Below, in pieces: positions 9,601-64,000 of a stretch of DNA of 64,000 nt. How positions within the stretch are numbered: position 1 is the stretch's first letter; the number at the start of each line of letters is the position of its first letter. This DNA is from Pseudomonadales bacterium (GTDB lineage: Bacteria; Pseudomonadota; Gammaproteobacteria; Pseudomonadales; Azotimanducaceae), in assembly GCA_028285415.1 (NCBI GenBank), contig JANQPF010000022.1, forward strand, positions 186,001-250,000. Reading direction: 5' to 3'. A model generated the notes under the pieces. That model was not told the DNA's origin. It was given only the letters and a program-made list of their open reading frames with translations, and did no database searches. The position numbers were made by a program, and so were the translations under genes.

Positions 9601-10638
9601 CTACAGCATCTCGCCCGCAACGAGCTCCAGCGCCTCCGGCTGCTGGCAGCCGAGCAGCATTGCGCCTACCTGGCCTTTGCCGGCAGCTTCCCGCCAGCGT
9701 CCCAGACGCTCCTTGATGCGCTCGGCGGGACCAACCAGGTGGCAGGCGTCGATGAGTTCCGCAGGTACCGCCGCGGCTGCCTCGTCTCTTTTCCCCGCGA
9801 GGAACAGGTCCTGAATTTCCACCGCAGCGTCCTCGAAGCCGAGGGCTTTGGCGTAGTTGTTGTAGAAGTTTTTGTCGCGAGCGCCCATGCCGCCGATATA
9901 AAGCGCCATGTTGCCCCGGATCGGCATCATGCACTGTTCCACGTCGTCACCCATGATCACGGTGACGAAAGGAGAGACTTCAAACTGGGTCAGGTCTTTG
10001 TCGCCGGCTGCGGCAAATCCTTTCTGGATGGGATCTTCGAAAACGGAGTACTTTTCCGGGTCCATCCAGATGGGGAAGAATCCGTCGCAGACCTCCGCCG
10101 CGGCGGCAACGCCCGCCGGCGTGATGCTGGCCGCGAAGATCGGGATGTCCTCTTCACAGTGCAGAATGCTCTTCAGCGGTTTGCCGAGTCCGGTAGCGCC
10201 TTCGCCGGTGTAGGGCAGCTGGTACATCTGGCCGTCGAATGCCGCTTTGTCCTCCCGTGCAAAAATTGTCTTCATGATTTCCACGTACTCTTTCAGGCGG
10301 GTAATCGGCTTGCCGTAGGGTACGCCGTGCCAGCCTTCTACAACCTGAGGGCCGGAAGCGCCGAGGCCGCAGATGAATCGCCCACCGGAAAGCTCTGCCA
10401 GGCTCATGGCCGTCATCGCAGCCATCGCGGGGGTCCGCGCCGGCATCTGCATGATGGCGGTGCCGACTTTGATCTTTTCCGTCTGGGCAAGTATCCAGGT
10501 TGCCGGGGTGATGGCGTCGCCGCCGTAGGCTTCCGCCGTCCACACCGAGTCATAGCCGAGGGCTTCGGCGTGCTTGATGGCTTCCATGTTGATGTTGACG
10601 CGGGCGCCGATGCCGCCGCCGAGAATGCCTAACTTCAT
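9601..10638 (-). CDS. LLM class flavin/F420-dependent oxidoreductase
   Basis: This 345-residue luciferase-like monooxygenase-fold protein shows the family hallmarks: MKLGILGGGIG opening, AEALGYDSVWTAEAYGGD, LAELSGGRFICGLGASGPQVVEGWHG, and a C-terminal VGPAERIKERLGRWREAAG. It is a cytosolic TIM-barrel enzyme using reduced FMN or F420. It resembles the F420-type LLM proteins common in mycobacteria and in marine proteobacteria that degrade steroids or fatty acids. It follows the enoyl-CoA hydratase by 44 bases and is the last gene of an apparent MFS / hydratase / LLM operon. The substrate is unknown. Confidence 0.88.
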   Translation of the reverse strand: MKLGILGGGIGARVNINMEAIKHAEALGYDSVWTAEAYGGDAITPATWILAQTEKIKVGTAIMQMPARTPAMAAMTAMSLAELSGGRFICGLGASGPQVVEGWHGVPYGKPITRLKEYVEIMKTIFAREDKAAFDGQMYQLPYTGEGATGLGKPLKSILHCEEDIPIFAASITPAGVAAAAEVCDGFFPIWMDPEKYSVFEDPIQKGFAAAGDKDLTQFEVSPFVTVIMGDDVEQCMMPIRGNMALYIGGMGARDKNFYNNYAKALGFEDAAVEIQDLFLAGKRDEAAAAVPAELIDACHLVGPAERIKERLGRWREAAGKGQVGAMLLGCQQPEALELVAGEML

Positions 10639-47863: not shown

Positions 47864-48884
47864 CGGCTTCGTCGTAGCGTTGGATGATTTCGTCGAGAGC
47901 GACAATCTGATGCTTGCGCCACGCTATTTCCAGCGCGTTGGCATCTTCGTCGTCCGATTCGAGTTCCTCAACTTCCGACCTCAGCGTTGCGGCCTGCTCG
48001 CGGAAGCGCTCGATCCGTGCCGCGAGTTCAGCCTTATCGAACATGAGCTTTTCGGCTTTGCCGGTGTCTTTGTCGGTTTCCGGCGTGTAGTCGAGAGGCG
48101 GGATCACTTTGCCTTCGAAACGTCGCTGGTCCATGACGGTGGGCGTCATCACCTCAACGCCGTTGCGATGGAATGTGTCGAGAACCGCGGCCCGAAGGTC
48201 GCTGCGGCTACTGACAATCTTGCCAACGTTGTCCAGAAAGCCGGTGACCTTGTAGGTGACCGCAAAGTCACCGATATCCAGAATCTGCACAAACGCGTCG
48301 GAGAGCCCCGCGCCTTCTGCTGCTTCCAGAAGCAGTTCGCGGACCCTGCGGCGGTGCACGTCGAAGCCGATGGATATCTCCGTGGAGATCAGCGTGCCCG
48401 TTTGGTCGACCACCTGCACAGGCTGGGTGATCATGAGCAGGTTGGGCAACGCAATGACGTCTCTGTCTTCGCTCTGGATCTCGGTATGCAGAAGCGCTTT
48501 TGCGGTCACTCTGCCAAACTGCCCATCCACCCTCACAAAGTCTCCGGTGTGGAACGTGCCCATGGCTTTCAGCATGAGTCCGGCCATGGCGTTACTGACG
48601 AACGAAGTGGAAGAGAACGCAATGACCGCGGTCATCGCATAGCCGAACACGGTGAAAAGACTTTGCCGGGTCGAATCTTCCAGCGGCCAGGAGACAAGCA
48701 AAACAGGCTGCGCCACCAACACGATCGCAACGTAGGTGAGTTGTCGATAGAGCCGGTTTTGCGGCTGGCTGGCAAACGACTTGGTGGTCAGCCAGAGAAG
48801 CGCCGCAGTAACAAGGCCAACCACAAGCAGCGGTCCGCCCCAGGCGAGCAGAGGCGGCAGGATCTGGTCCAATGAGAAATCCAT
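47856..48884 (-). CDS. MscS family mechanosensitive channel
   Basis: The 342-residue protein has about three or four membrane segments. The pore-like helix and beta domain are seen in SSTSFVSNAMAGLMLKAMGT followed by FHTGDFVRVDGQFGRVTAKA and HTEIQSEDRDVIALPNLLMI, typical of MscS/YnaI-like channels. The C-terminal part is helical and charged (KAELAARIERFREQAATLRS), likely a coiled coil. It protects against osmotic downshock. It is the first gene of the overlapping MscS / SLC13 / sulfatase transcript. Confidence 0.88.
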   Translation of the reverse strand: MDFSLDQILPPLLAWGGPLLVVGLVTAALLWLTTKSFASQPQNRLYRQLTYVAIVLVAQPVLLVSWPLEDSTRQSLFTVFGYAMTAVIAFSSTSFVSNAMAGLMLKAMGTFHTGDFVRVDGQFGRVTAKALLHTEIQSEDRDVIALPNLLMITQPVQVVDQTGTLISTEISIGFDVHRRRVRELLLEAAEGAGLSDAFVQILDIGDFAVTYKVTGFLDNVGKIVSSRSDLRAAVLDTFHRNGVEVMTPTVMDQRRFEGKVIPPLDYTPETDKDTGKAEKLMFDKAELAARIERFREQAATLRSEVEELESDDEDANALEIAWRKHQIVALDEIIQRYDEADG

Positions 48885-48979
48885 CGGCGAATTGTACGCG
48901 GAATGCCGAGCCTGGGGATGGAATAGGCGTAAAAACTTGTGCTGGAGTTATTTTGGTCCCGGCTTCCAGGGCAAACTTG

Positions 48980-48988
48980 TGCTATACC
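48980..48988 (+). promoter_or_regulatory. Extended -10 promoter element for the thrS leader
   Basis: TGCTATACC is an extended -10 element. It would start transcription about 20 bases before the leader peptide. No good -35 is visible, which extended -10 promoters tolerate. Confidence 0.4.
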
Positions 48989-49014
48989 TTCATGGTTGAT
49001 ACATTGGCGCCGCT

Positions 49015-49092
49015 ATGAAATTACTGCACCGTCAGACCAGCACGTTGACTACCGATACCCGGACTACGGGTGTCGAGTTGCCGGCTGTGTGA
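49015..49092 (+). CDS. Threonine-rich leader peptide of the thrS attenuator
   Basis: The 25-codon open frame reads MKLLHRQTSTLTTDTRTTGV then ELPAV and stop. Seven of 25 residues are threonine (positions 8, 10, 12, 13, 15, 17, 18), including two Thr-Thr pairs, just where a stalled ribosome would control RNA folding. It is followed by alternative hairpins, a terminator and then thrS. This is the hallmark of ribosome-mediated attenuation as in the thr operon leader. The ribosome site is weak. A nine-codon frame (MVDTLAPL, 48992-49018) overlaps its start by ATGA and could couple translation. Confidence 0.75.
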   Translation: MKLLHRQTSTLTTDTRTTGVELPAV

Positions 49093-49177
49093 ATTTTTCG
49101 AATTAAGTATGGGCGGCACCTCGATAAGAGGCGCCGCTTCCAACAAGACCCCGGGAGGCAGCGCCACCGGGGTTTTT
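49054..49177 (+). promoter_or_regulatory. Transcription attenuator of thrS
   Basis: Hairpin 1:2 pairs GATACCCG (49054-49061) with CGGGTGTC (49067-49074), with one G-U pair, inside the Thr codons. An alternative 2:3 pairing joins GGTGTCG (49069-49075) to CGGCACC (49114-49120 region). Hairpin 3:4 pairs GCGGCACCTC (49113-49122) with GAGGCGCCGC (49128-49137), one mismatch. Arm 4 can alternatively pair GGCGCCGC with GCAGCGCC inside the terminator loop. The terminator is ACCCCGG (49148-49154) with CCGGGGT (49167-49173) and TTTTT. Stalling at Thr codons should favour 2:3, free arm 4 and disturb the terminator. This logic is inference from pairing by eye. Confidence 0.7.
49148..49177 (+). terminator. 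Intrinsic terminator upstream of thrS (attenuator terminator)
   Basis: ACCCCGG and CCGGGGT form a 7-bp stem, with an inner GGC/GCC pairing, followed by five T residues and GTTT. It lies 55 bases before the thrS start, so it must be bypassed for thrS expression. Confidence 0.85.
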
Positions 49178-49231
49178 GTTTGGGTGTCGAAAAGCTGGTT
49201 GAGATCAGGGTCGTCAACACGGAGTAGAAAG

Positions 49232-51082
49232 ATGTCTAACTTTGAACACAGCGGCGACGAGGCGCAGGATGACCTGTACAAGGTGCGTCACAGTCTCGCT
49301 CACGTCATGGCGCAGGCCGTATTGGAAATGCGCCCCGGTAGTACGCTGGGCTTCGGCCCACCTATCCAGGATGGCTTTTACTACGATTTCATTCTGAGTG
49401 AACCGCTGACCGAGGAAGACTTCCCCGAGCTCGAGCGTCGGATGAAGAAGATCTGCAAAAGAGGTCAGCGCTTCGATCGCGAGGACTTGGACGCGGAAGC
49501 GGCGCTGGCGCGCATCGACGCGATGGGAGAGCCCTACAAAAGAGAGTATGGAGCTGAGCTCATAGAGAAGCACAAGCGTAAAGGCTTGTCGTTCTACCGC
49601 AACGGACCGTTTGTCGACATGTGTGAAGGCCCGCACGTGCACACGACAAAAGAAATCCCGCGTGATGCCTTCAAGCTGCGTAGCGTCGCCGGTGCTTACT
49701 GGCGTGGTAACTCCGACAACGTGATGATGACGCGTATCTACGCCTGGGCGTTTCTGGACAAGGAGACGCTCGATGCTCACGTGCAGGCTTTCGAGGAAGC
49801 CCAGGCGCGTGATCACAAGAAACTTGGCCGCGAGCTTGGGTTGTTTACATTCGACAACGAGATCGGGAGAGGTCTGCCGCTGTGGCTGCCGAACGGCACG
49901 GTGGTGCGCGACGAGCTCGAGAAGCTCGCCAGGGAACTCGAGTTCAAAGCCGGCTTCCACCGCGTCACCACGCCGCATCTCGCCAAGGAAGATTTGTACC
50001 GTACGACGGGGCATCTGCCTTACTACGCCGAAGACATGTTTCCCTCGATGGACGTCATGGAGTTGGGTGAAAGTGGCGATGAGGAGCGGATCAAAGAGAC
50101 CTACCGTCTGCGTCCGATGAATTGTCCCCATCATCACAAGGTGTTTGCCGCAGAGCCGCGCAGTTACCGGGACCTGCCGCTGCGGTTGGCCGAGTATGGT
50201 CAGGTGTACCGCTTCGAGGATTCCGGTGCGGTTGGCGGTCTCGTCCGCGTGCGTGGGATGGCGATGAACGACGCACATATTTACTGCACGAAAGCGCAGA
50301 TCAAAGACGAGTTCAAAGCTGTCATTGAAATGTCGAAAGAAGCGTACGCGGTGCTTGGTCTGGATGATTTCAAGATCCGTTTATCACGTTGGGATCCGCA
50401 AGATCCCAAAGGCAAAGACAAGTACGTCGATAATCCGGCCGCGTGGGAAGAGTCGGAGGCCATTCTCGCGGACGTCCTGGATGAAATGGGCATCGAGTTC
50501 AAGGAAGGCGTCGGTGAAGCGGCATTCTACGGTCCGAAACTCGACTTTCAGTTTGTCACGGTAACAGGGCGTGAAGAAACGGTATCGACGGTGCAGCTCG
50601 ACTTTGCGCAGCCCGAACGGATGGGGCTGAAGTACGTGGGTTCGGACGGGCAGGAGCATACGCCGTTCTGTGTCCATCGCGCGCCGTTCTCGACCCACGA
50701 GCGTTTTGTTGCGTTCCTGATTGAGCACTTCGCCGGAGCGTTCCCGACCTGGATGGCACCGCTGCAAGTGCAGGTCCTGACGGTTGGCGAACAGTTCGAC
50801 GATTATGCCGGCGCTATCGTGGCTCGCCTGCGAGCTAATATGGTACGCGCAGAGCTTGCCCCATCAGACGACACGCTGCCGAAAAAGATCCGTCAGGGTA
50901 CGGTGCGGAAAATTCCGAATCTCCTGATCATCGGTGAACGCGAAGCGGAAAACGGCACGGTGACGTTGCGCCGTTACGGGCATGAGTATCAACACACGCT
51001 TTCCGTGGAAGCATTTGTCAATGCAATAGGAACGACAATCGCGGAGCGTCGTCTGGAATTTGCGCTGCCCGAGACGGGCTGA
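49232..51082 (+). CDS. thrS: Threonyl-tRNA synthetase, divergent TGS-less type
   Basis: The 616-residue class II synthetase begins directly at the N2 editing domain (RHSLAHVMAQAV, with the HxxxH zinc-like motif, and DMCEGPHVHTT). The catalytic core follows with LRPMNCPHHHKVF, RVRGMAMNDAHIYC and FCVHRAPFSTHERFVAFLIE. The anticodon-binding domain is at the end. Compared with E. coli ThrRS (642 aa) the N-terminal TGS domain is missing, and core motifs such as CPHHHKVF differ from CPGHVQIF. They resemble a ThrRS lineage I associate with non-proteobacterial phyla. The usual infC-rpmI-rplT-pheST neighbours are absent. ATG 49232 has GGAG 7 nt upstream. It may be a second, inducible copy. Confidence 0.93.
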   Translation: MSNFEHSGDEAQDDLYKVRHSLAHVMAQAVLEMRPGSTLGFGPPIQDGFYYDFILSEPLTEEDFPELERRMKKICKRGQRFDREDLDAEAALARIDAMGEPYKREYGAELIEKHKRKGLSFYRNGPFVDMCEGPHVHTTKEIPRDAFKLRSVAGAYWRGNSDNVMMTRIYAWAFLDKETLDAHVQAFEEAQARDHKKLGRELGLFTFDNEIGRGLPLWLPNGTVVRDELEKLARELEFKAGFHRVTTPHLAKEDLYRTTGHLPYYAEDMFPSMDVMELGESGDEERIKETYRLRPMNCPHHHKVFAAEPRSYRDLPLRLAEYGQVYRFEDSGAVGGLVRVRGMAMNDAHIYCTKAQIKDEFKAVIEMSKEAYAVLGLDDFKIRLSRWDPQDPKGKDKYVDNPAAWEESEAILADVLDEMGIEFKEGVGEAAFYGPKLDFQFVTVTGREETVSTVQLDFAQPERMGLKYVGSDGQEHTPFCVHRAPFSTHERFVAFLIEHFAGAFPTWMAPLQVQVLTVGEQFDDYAGAIVARLRANMVRAELAPSDDTLPKKIRQGTVRKIPNLLIIGEREAENGTVTLRRYGHEYQHTLSVEAFVNAIGTTIAERRLEFALPETG

Positions 51083-63578: not shown

Positions 63579-64000
63579 TTAGATCGACATCAGGTAACGC
63601 ATGTACCAGATGCGACCGCGGGGATCGTGGGTGAACGGGTCATAGGCGCCGTCGTTGTTCAACAGCGGCGGCTCTTCGTTGGTCAGGTTCTTGACCCCAA
63701 GCGTCAGCGTGGAACCTTCGCTCTGGAAGCTGAAGGCGGGCAGCTGCACGCTGTACTGGGCATCAGCCGTCGTGTGCGAATCGATCGTCGGCGCAAAGCC
63801 GATGAACGAGCCACGCAGCGCGCTCTGCGCCAGATCGTCGTCGTACTCGTCGACGTGGTTGATCTGCAGATTCACAGAGTGACGATCCTTCGACCAGTTC
63901 AGCAGCAGGTTCGCCTTGTACTCCGGCAGCGGGTGGCCGACCGTGTTACCGGCGTTGCGGCTGCCGATGCCGTCGATCGTCTGACCACGCGGATCCACCA
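63579..64000 (-). CDS. TonB-dependent receptor, C-terminal part (5' end beyond window)
   Basis: Only the last 140 codons are present. They encode barrel strands (YKANLLLNWSKDRHSVNLQI, TADAQYSVQLPAFSFQSEGS) and the end block AYDPFTHDPRGRIWYMRYL, parallel to AFTHNPFGRMLKLGFRYTLD of the neighbouring receptor. The two are paralogues in tandem. The gene runs off the right edge, so its plug and start are not visible. Confidence 0.88.
   Translation of the reverse strand, partial: VDPRGQTIDGIGSRNAGNTVGHPLPEYKANLLLNWSKDRHSVNLQINHVDEYDDDLAQSALRGSFIGFAPTIDSHTTADAQYSVQLPAFSFQSEGSTLTLGVKNLTNEEPPLLNNDGAYDPFTHDPRGRIWYMRYLMSI

Follow-up and report, generated by a model that had tools for sequence, protein, structure and literature searches.

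What role does a short open reading frame (ORF) crowded with threonine codons play immediately ahead of a threonyl-tRNA synthetase (ThrRS) gene? The question is raised by a 64,000-nucleotide (nt) stretch of a Pseudomonadales genome of the Azotimanducaceae (GCA_028285415.1, contig JANQPF010000022.1, positions 186,001 to 250,000; below, the window is this whole stretch, with positions counted from its first letter and features on the plus strand unless stated otherwise), in which thrS follows such a frame and a set of hairpins that share their arms. We interpret the element, with a probability of roughly 0.86 and on the strength of sequence comparison, as a ribosome-mediated transcription attenuator that would couple thrS to charged tRNA-Thr. 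The leader, its arms, the coevolution of the arms, the position of the promoter and the distribution across genomes are read directly off the DNA.

A threonine-rich leader and competing hairpins ahead of thrS

The leader peptide ORF (49015..49092, MKLLHRQTSTLTTDTRTTGVELPAV) has 25 codons, seven of them for threonine, as an earlier note on this DNA had read it, and has Thr-rich counterparts in relatives. Its final codons overlap arm A (49073..49085), which, when free, is the partner of arm B5 (49112..49124; A:B5 duplex -17.0 kcal/mol). The alternative partner of B5 is arm B3 (49130..49141), which itself has two partners, B5 in the termination state and the terminator loop in the antitermination state (-18.3 and -19.7 kcal/mol). 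Hairpin B (49112-49137) lies between the leader ORF and an intrinsic terminator predicted from sequence and fold, a GC-rich hairpin followed by five T (ACCCCGG...CCGGGGTTTTTG, 49148..49178), whose inner segment, Tin (49153..49165), is the antiterminator partner of B3. Competing hairpins and a GC terminator with five T before thrS had likewise been claimed in the note, and the folds and the terminator agree with it. For the RNA from 49015 to 49180 the fold energy is -72 kcal/mol, whereas shuffles average -51.2 (z -4.8), and none of 200 shuffles equals it. A Shine-Dalgarno-like GGAG (49221..49224), 42 nt past the terminator, takes no part in the pairings described, and is followed by thrS itself (49232..51082, ATG at 49232), which encodes a 616-residue ThrRS of a TGS-less type (TIGR00418, 603.9 bits, and Pfam domains).

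A consensus scan of 48800-49300 listed neither promoter nor terminator; its loop limit of 8 probably misses the terminator stem, the inner part of which measures 16 nt. A Thr-specific T-box or another known riboswitch that senses uncharged tRNA directly would have a precedent in the Firmicutes, where thrS is often under T-box control. Against it, the whole window returned no Rfam family match at the gathering score, Thr_leader and T-box included, and a search of 48950-49240 at E up to 10 returned three sub-threshold matches only (PsrR1, Magnesium-II and CcsR1), with neither T-box nor Thr_leader among them. As such a sensor would also leave the Thr-rich ORF unexplained, we regard it as extremely improbable.

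A stretch with six Thr codons in ten is by itself not unique: the minus strand of the window has three more (near 9875-9881, 59989 and 63859-63865). A longer N-terminal extension of thrS, the frame of which is open from 49070, was set aside as it gained no Pfam domain; the in-frame upstream thrS starts listed for 15 relatives (the first four in the case of locus L023) are all at most 48 nt away.

A relay predicted to link the terminator to threonine supply

From this arrangement we infer translation of the leader, a stall, a response to threonine and termination itself. The transcript would begin at or within a few nt of the leader AUG, and a ribosome following RNA polymerase would translate the Thr-rich leader. 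When Thr-tRNA is ample, the ribosome would reach the stop codon and hide A, B5 and B3 would pair, the terminator would form and transcription would stop ahead of thrS. When it is scarce, the ribosome would stall on the Thr codons and the free A would take B5; the released B3 would then engage the terminator at its loop and 5' side (Tin), and RNA polymerase would continue into thrS.

The geometry is consistent with such a relay: in 27 representative loci (defined below with the coevolution tests) the A duplex has its 3' end within -14 to +13 nt of the leader stop, i.e. at the site of a terminating ribosome, so that a ribosome reaching the stop would hide A and leave B5 to B3. Correspondingly, a fold of 49079-49162 in the window (ribosome on the last Thr codons, 3' arm of the terminator absent) contains A:B5 together with B3:Tin, and a fold from 49104 (ribosome at the stop) contains B5:B3.

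Threonine codons and terminators upstream of related thrS genes

The comparison was made within the family of the window genome, where 113 of the 206 genomes examined have a ThrRS of the window type (called at E up to 1e-200). These yielded 114 copies (113 genomes and the fragment L038; the window is included), 112 of which have at least 200 upstream bases. Open frames within 350 nt upstream were scanned for Thr codons per ten, with dinucleotide shuffles as the control (n=2240). At least five Thr codons in ten are present at 40 of the 112 loci against 34 shuffles, at least six at 32 against five shuffles, and at least seven at 25 against none. At the canonical thrS loci of the family (n=21, L039-L059), where roughly 380 nt ahead of the approximate start were covered, five or more are never reached. 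When short upstream ORFs at the 114 loci are scored for any residue recurring at least five times in 12 amino acids, threonine is the most frequent (41 loci), followed by arginine (27) and serine (23); at the looser level of four in 12, arginine (63), alanine (59) and serine (58) all stand above threonine (54).

The leaders of relatives include MCDMRVMTTTTTTATSVAGSSRA (L011), MNPIGQTTATTTTTTTRGGAP (L218) and MDMRRQTTTTTTTRIGSASRAVMIA (L190), and the 38 with an assigned start have a median of 22 codons and seven Thr. All 24 runs of at least four Thr codons mix synonymous codons, which suggests that selection has acted on threonine and not on a repeat in the DNA. Furthermore, a terminator of the form CCCC...GGGGTTT is present upstream in 53 of the 112 loci (window included), and 45 of these 53 have a frame with at least four Thr codons in ten ending 20-230 nt ahead of it. 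A Thr-rich leader with a terminator before thrS is thus present beyond chance. The note had set conservation of the Thr codons and hairpins in relatives beforehand as its test, and both are found in a sizeable share of the clade (45 of 112 loci), with competing arms that coevolve as described in the next section.

Eight loci show the terminator form without a rightly placed frame of four Thr codons in ten (L024, L032, L164, L167, L168, L170, L172 and L175), and are possibly decaying attenuators. Conversely, L037 (genome G041), L180 and L201 have at least five Thr codons in ten with the usual terminator form absent; L037, with eight of ten, is the most divergent member of the clade. At the homoserine dehydrogenase locus of the window genome (3537 bases on the gene strand, the only thr gene examined) no ten-codon stretch has five or more Thr codons.

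Coevolution of the competing arms

Coevolution was assessed by a swap test, in which the summed energy of the real partners is compared with that of partners exchanged between loci (20000 swaps); the tree is not modelled, and control pairings and thinning serve as the guard against shared ancestry. In a hairpin-based version, the best hairpin of a locus supplied its B5 and B3. It used the 42 loci whose leader has at least three Thr codons in ten and stops 30-80 nt short of the terminator (the other 11 of the 53 terminator loci were omitted), reduced to 27 representatives with less than 72% likeness to one another. No swap was as good as the real partners for A:B5 (-474 against -401 kcal/mol, standard deviation 13), B5:B3 (-488 against -359, standard deviation 15) or B3:Tin (-429 against -353, standard deviation 14), the B5:B3 value being partly circular because the arms were chosen by that very hairpin. 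The controls gave 11549 (A:Tin), 1985 (A:B3) and 8686 (B5:Tin) swaps as good.

Due to this circularity, the tests were repeated without folding, the arms being read from fixed windows, at 39 loci that have at least four Thr codons and a stop 35-65 nt ahead of the terminator; thinning left 23 representatives. Swaps as good numbered 0 for B5:B3, 0 for B3:Tin and 76 for A:B5, versus 9053 (A:B3), 15553 (A:Tin) and 16658 (B5:Tin) in the controls, and the real partner ranked within the top quarter for 13 of 23 rows (B5:B3) and 19 of 23 (B3:Tin). An earlier fixed-window test of B3:Tin, with 18 representatives of 47 distinct loci, had given seven swaps as good. Thus, the three relay pairings A:B5, B5:B3 and B3:Tin coevolve and the three control pairings do not, and, judged from these swap tests, the antiterminator and terminator pairings are mutually exclusive and evolutionarily conserved. 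The high diversity of the leaders and arms is such that comparison alone strongly supports the relay. The note had suggested that a stalled ribosome leads to disruption of the terminator; the arms coevolve as that idea needs, and the relay is one step longer than a simple 2:3/3:4 switch, a point missing from the note.

Several observations weigh against this reading. Its weakest link is A:B5, with the 76 fixed-window swaps noted above: only six of 23 rows have the real partner in their top quarter, and A is shortened in 29 of the 39 loci. The earlier B3:Tin test placed the real B3 partner among the top five of 18 in only ten of 18 rows. The control pairing A:Tin also beats mononucleotide shuffles (one of 200 as good), and hence composition favours pairing generally. 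The classical first hairpin, between the Thr codons and A, shows no coevolution (9288 of 20000 swaps as good, 22 representatives); the own fold of the window does pair its Thr codons with arm A. Locus L007 (genome G006), with leader and terminator, has no clear B hairpin and a stop 25 nt before the terminator, and because of that stop was left out of both the hairpin-based and the fixed-window tests. Neither the terminator nor four Thr codons in ten is found at 52 of the 112 loci. Finally, whenever its 3' arm is part of the folded RNA, the terminator belongs to the minimum-energy structure (all five such window folds, with and without a stall), so that antitermination would have to be kinetic, a mode of switching generally accepted for attenuators, and a window fold with the ribosome stalled at Thr codon 8 does not yield A:B5, by which the late Thr codons should matter most in the window.

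The coevolution also bears on two other ways in which a Thr-rich ORF might act. Some leader peptides work via Rho or via control of translation, and the leader here could on that precedent govern Rho or the translation of thrS instead of an intrinsic terminator. Such a role does not agree with the GC-rich hairpin and T tract at 53 loci, the inner part of which coevolves with B3, nor with the placement of the thrS Shine-Dalgarno-like motif past the terminator and free of the pairings, and its chance appears to us exceedingly small. Alternatively, the peptide, or the terminated leader as a small RNA, could act in trans, with attenuation secondary. The trpL short ORF of S. meliloti codes for a functional leader peptide (PMC10117765), and this peptide, peTrpL, has a post-transcriptional effect on a multidrug resistance operon (PMC7298713). 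Across distant leaders, only threonine is shared and the remaining residues vary widely; a role in trans could exist in addition, but would not explain the coevolving arms, and we consider it scarcely probable as the primary function.

A putative promoter close to the leader start codon

A putative -10 hexamer (TACATT, 49000..49005) lies 9 nt before the leader AUG in the window, with a putative -35 hexamer (TTGTGC, 48977..48982; a weak match, three of six) 17 nt before it. This putative promoter, TTGTGC-17-TACATT-9-ATG, is weaker than those of the relatives: a -10-like hexamer is placed 6-10 nt before an in-frame leader ATG in 38 of the 45 loci with leader and terminator, as against a mean of 2.6 and a maximum of nine in 300 rounds of doublet-shuffled upstream DNA. 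The predominant forms among the 38 are TATCAT (16) and TATGAT (15), and in 21 of them TTGCAA, TTGCAT or TTGCCT is found 16 nt above the -10. Shine-Dalgarno-like motifs were sought before the same ATG and found at none of the 38. Given the usual distance from -10 to transcript start, the predicted 5' end is 0-4 nt ahead of the AUG. The promoter-like element so close to the AUG and the missing Shine-Dalgarno-like motif together suggest that the leader peptides are probably translated from leaderless mRNA, which would predict this mode of initiation across the whole set. Precedents are a leaderless short ORF coding for a functional leader peptide at S. meliloti trpL (PMC10117765) and the leaderless initiation discussed for C. 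glutamicum ilvBNC (PMC11857589).

Seven loci depart from the -10 rule (L002, L027, L033, L162, L169, L173 and L217). In L033 a TTG follows TATGAT at 7 nt, and for L002 and L217 the automatic choice of frame may be wrong.

A TGS-less synthetase beside the canonical enzyme

By Pfam, the window ThrRS consists of the SAD, class II core and anticodon-binding domains and does not have the TGS (N1) domain. The same genome (G000, contig C2) also encodes a canonical ThrRS with a TGS domain, to which the window enzyme is 41% identical; motifs common to the two in the alignment include catalytic, zinc and editing residues. The identification of the gene as thrS in the note stands in that it encodes a ThrRS; its first reading had missed that this is a divergent TGS-less type beside a canonical one, and the probable leaderless leader as well.

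In E. coli, where ThrRS carries the N1/TGS domain, the enzyme is established to act on its own mRNA and repress translation. An equivalent autoregulation here, with the leader and terminator incidental, would extend that precedent, which PMC2965389 also names. The arms nevertheless coevolve, and the window enzyme is missing the very domain that the canonical ThrRS of its genome retains; we thus judge this possibility very unlikely. Attenuation through the leader remains our preferred interpretation.

Comparison with known attenuators

The closest likeness is to the his attenuator of enteric bacteria, which has a six-segment relay topology. As there, a short leader contains runs of the regulatory codon, and the pairings are chained such that the stall helix frees the next arm, which blocks the terminator; in contrast, the present element is based on threonine, precedes a synthetase gene, shows no coevolution of the first hairpin in the codon run and is probably leaderless. 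Thr_leader of Rfam, the element of the thr operon, has Thr codons in a leader peptide before a terminator, precedes biosynthetic genes and includes Ile codons. It shares the Thr-codon leader and terminator with our element and differs in the gene controlled and in the Ile codons; the Rfam searches above gave no match to it. The E. coli thrS operator has the same gene product and autoregulatory logic, but works by protein-RNA translational repression and not by attenuation.

Among synthetase genes, leader-peptide attenuation is described for pheST in gammaproteobacteria and for trpS and leuS in Streptomyces (PMC1262725); these present the same classical control, with other amino acids, genes and lineages. 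The hisS*/hisZ genes of bacilli, under His-leader attenuators (PMC2965389), are similar in that a leader-peptide attenuator controls a duplicated synthetase-type gene, and unlike the window thrS they belong to the Firmicutes and concern histidine, a comparison made by description and not by sequence. Attenuator leaders tied to leaderless mRNA, as in S. meliloti rnTrpL (PMC10117765) and C. glutamicum ilvBNC (PMC11857589), involve other amino acids, operons and bacterial classes. No report of leader-peptide attenuation of thrS was recognised among the matches listed in open-access full text, which covers the comparative literature only in part. The class of mechanism is already known, and the Thr version on thrS may, within the scope of that search, be undescribed, as the note had suggested. 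Threonyl-tRNA synthetase would thereby join the small number of synthetase genes for which leader-peptide attenuation has been reported.

Distribution and history of the probably attenuated thrS

In an order-wide sample the window type was found in 14 of 390 genomes (E up to 1e-180), all 14 in the family. Members of the clade are metagenome-assembled genomes (MAGs) titled Pseudomonadales, Gammaproteobacteria, OM182, OMG group, K189A clade and similar. Among the best 80 of 568 loci from a collection of named genomes, relatives outside the clade are 47-66% identical and have record titles such as Oligoflexia, Bacteriovoracaceae, Myxococcales, Kiritimatiellota, Verrucomicrobia and Acidobacteriota.

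In a quick tree built from 111 proteins of the window type, 77 rows form a gammaproteobacterial clade and the other 34 lie outside it. With L008, L037 and L149 scored as leader-bearing by hand, leaders are scattered over the clade and occur on its earliest branch as well (L037, which is long and lacks the usual terminator form), and the leader state changes at least 11 times. None of the 34 outside rows combines a Thr-rich frame with the terminator form sought. We read this as one early origin of the attenuator in the clade followed by repeated loss, with the caveat that change counts alone cannot separate gain from loss. Thr-rich frames (at least five of ten) before the outside thrS genes L122, L123, L129, L138, L153 and L154 were set aside as chance, as the sought terminator form is absent; other forms could escape such a search.

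At least seven of the 113 genomes with the window type also have a canonical-type match (G000, G006, G009, G030, G144, G149 and G163; that of G163, at 50%, is of ambiguous type). Among the matches listed, six of these seven dual genomes have leader and terminator, versus 45 of 112 loci overall (hypergeometric 0.016, or 0.003 without G163), an association that is weak because four of the seven belong to one genus. It is on this association that we base the suggestion that the TGS-less enzyme is a starvation-induced second ThrRS. A wider scenario, which we offer tentatively and hold at distinctly below even odds, is that the TGS-less ThrRS entered the family from outside, and that a his-type Thr attenuator with a leaderless leader arose on it, replaced the canonical protein-mRNA autoregulation, made the newcomer starvation-induced and was later lost many times. 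If that were so, the dual genomes would represent an intermediate, inducible-backup state. The family also provides a natural setting in which to compare how a housekeeping enzyme that was horizontally acquired or displaced comes by its own regulation, retains it and loses it.

Some minor observations accompany these results. At L008 (317-481; cf. L009) the loop of hairpin B contains an insert of about 160 nt with 22-nt inverted ends that are 95% complementary, and the arms flank it on both sides; it resembles a small mobile element lodged in the attenuator. Among the matches listed, G136, G181, G206 and G202 have two canonical-type ThrRS matches each, those of G202 being partial and at contig ends. 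Finally, the ThrRS of L125, from a record titled Klebsiella pneumoniae MAG, groups on long branches with a Polyangiaceae record among the outside relatives, and the bin is probably mislabelled.

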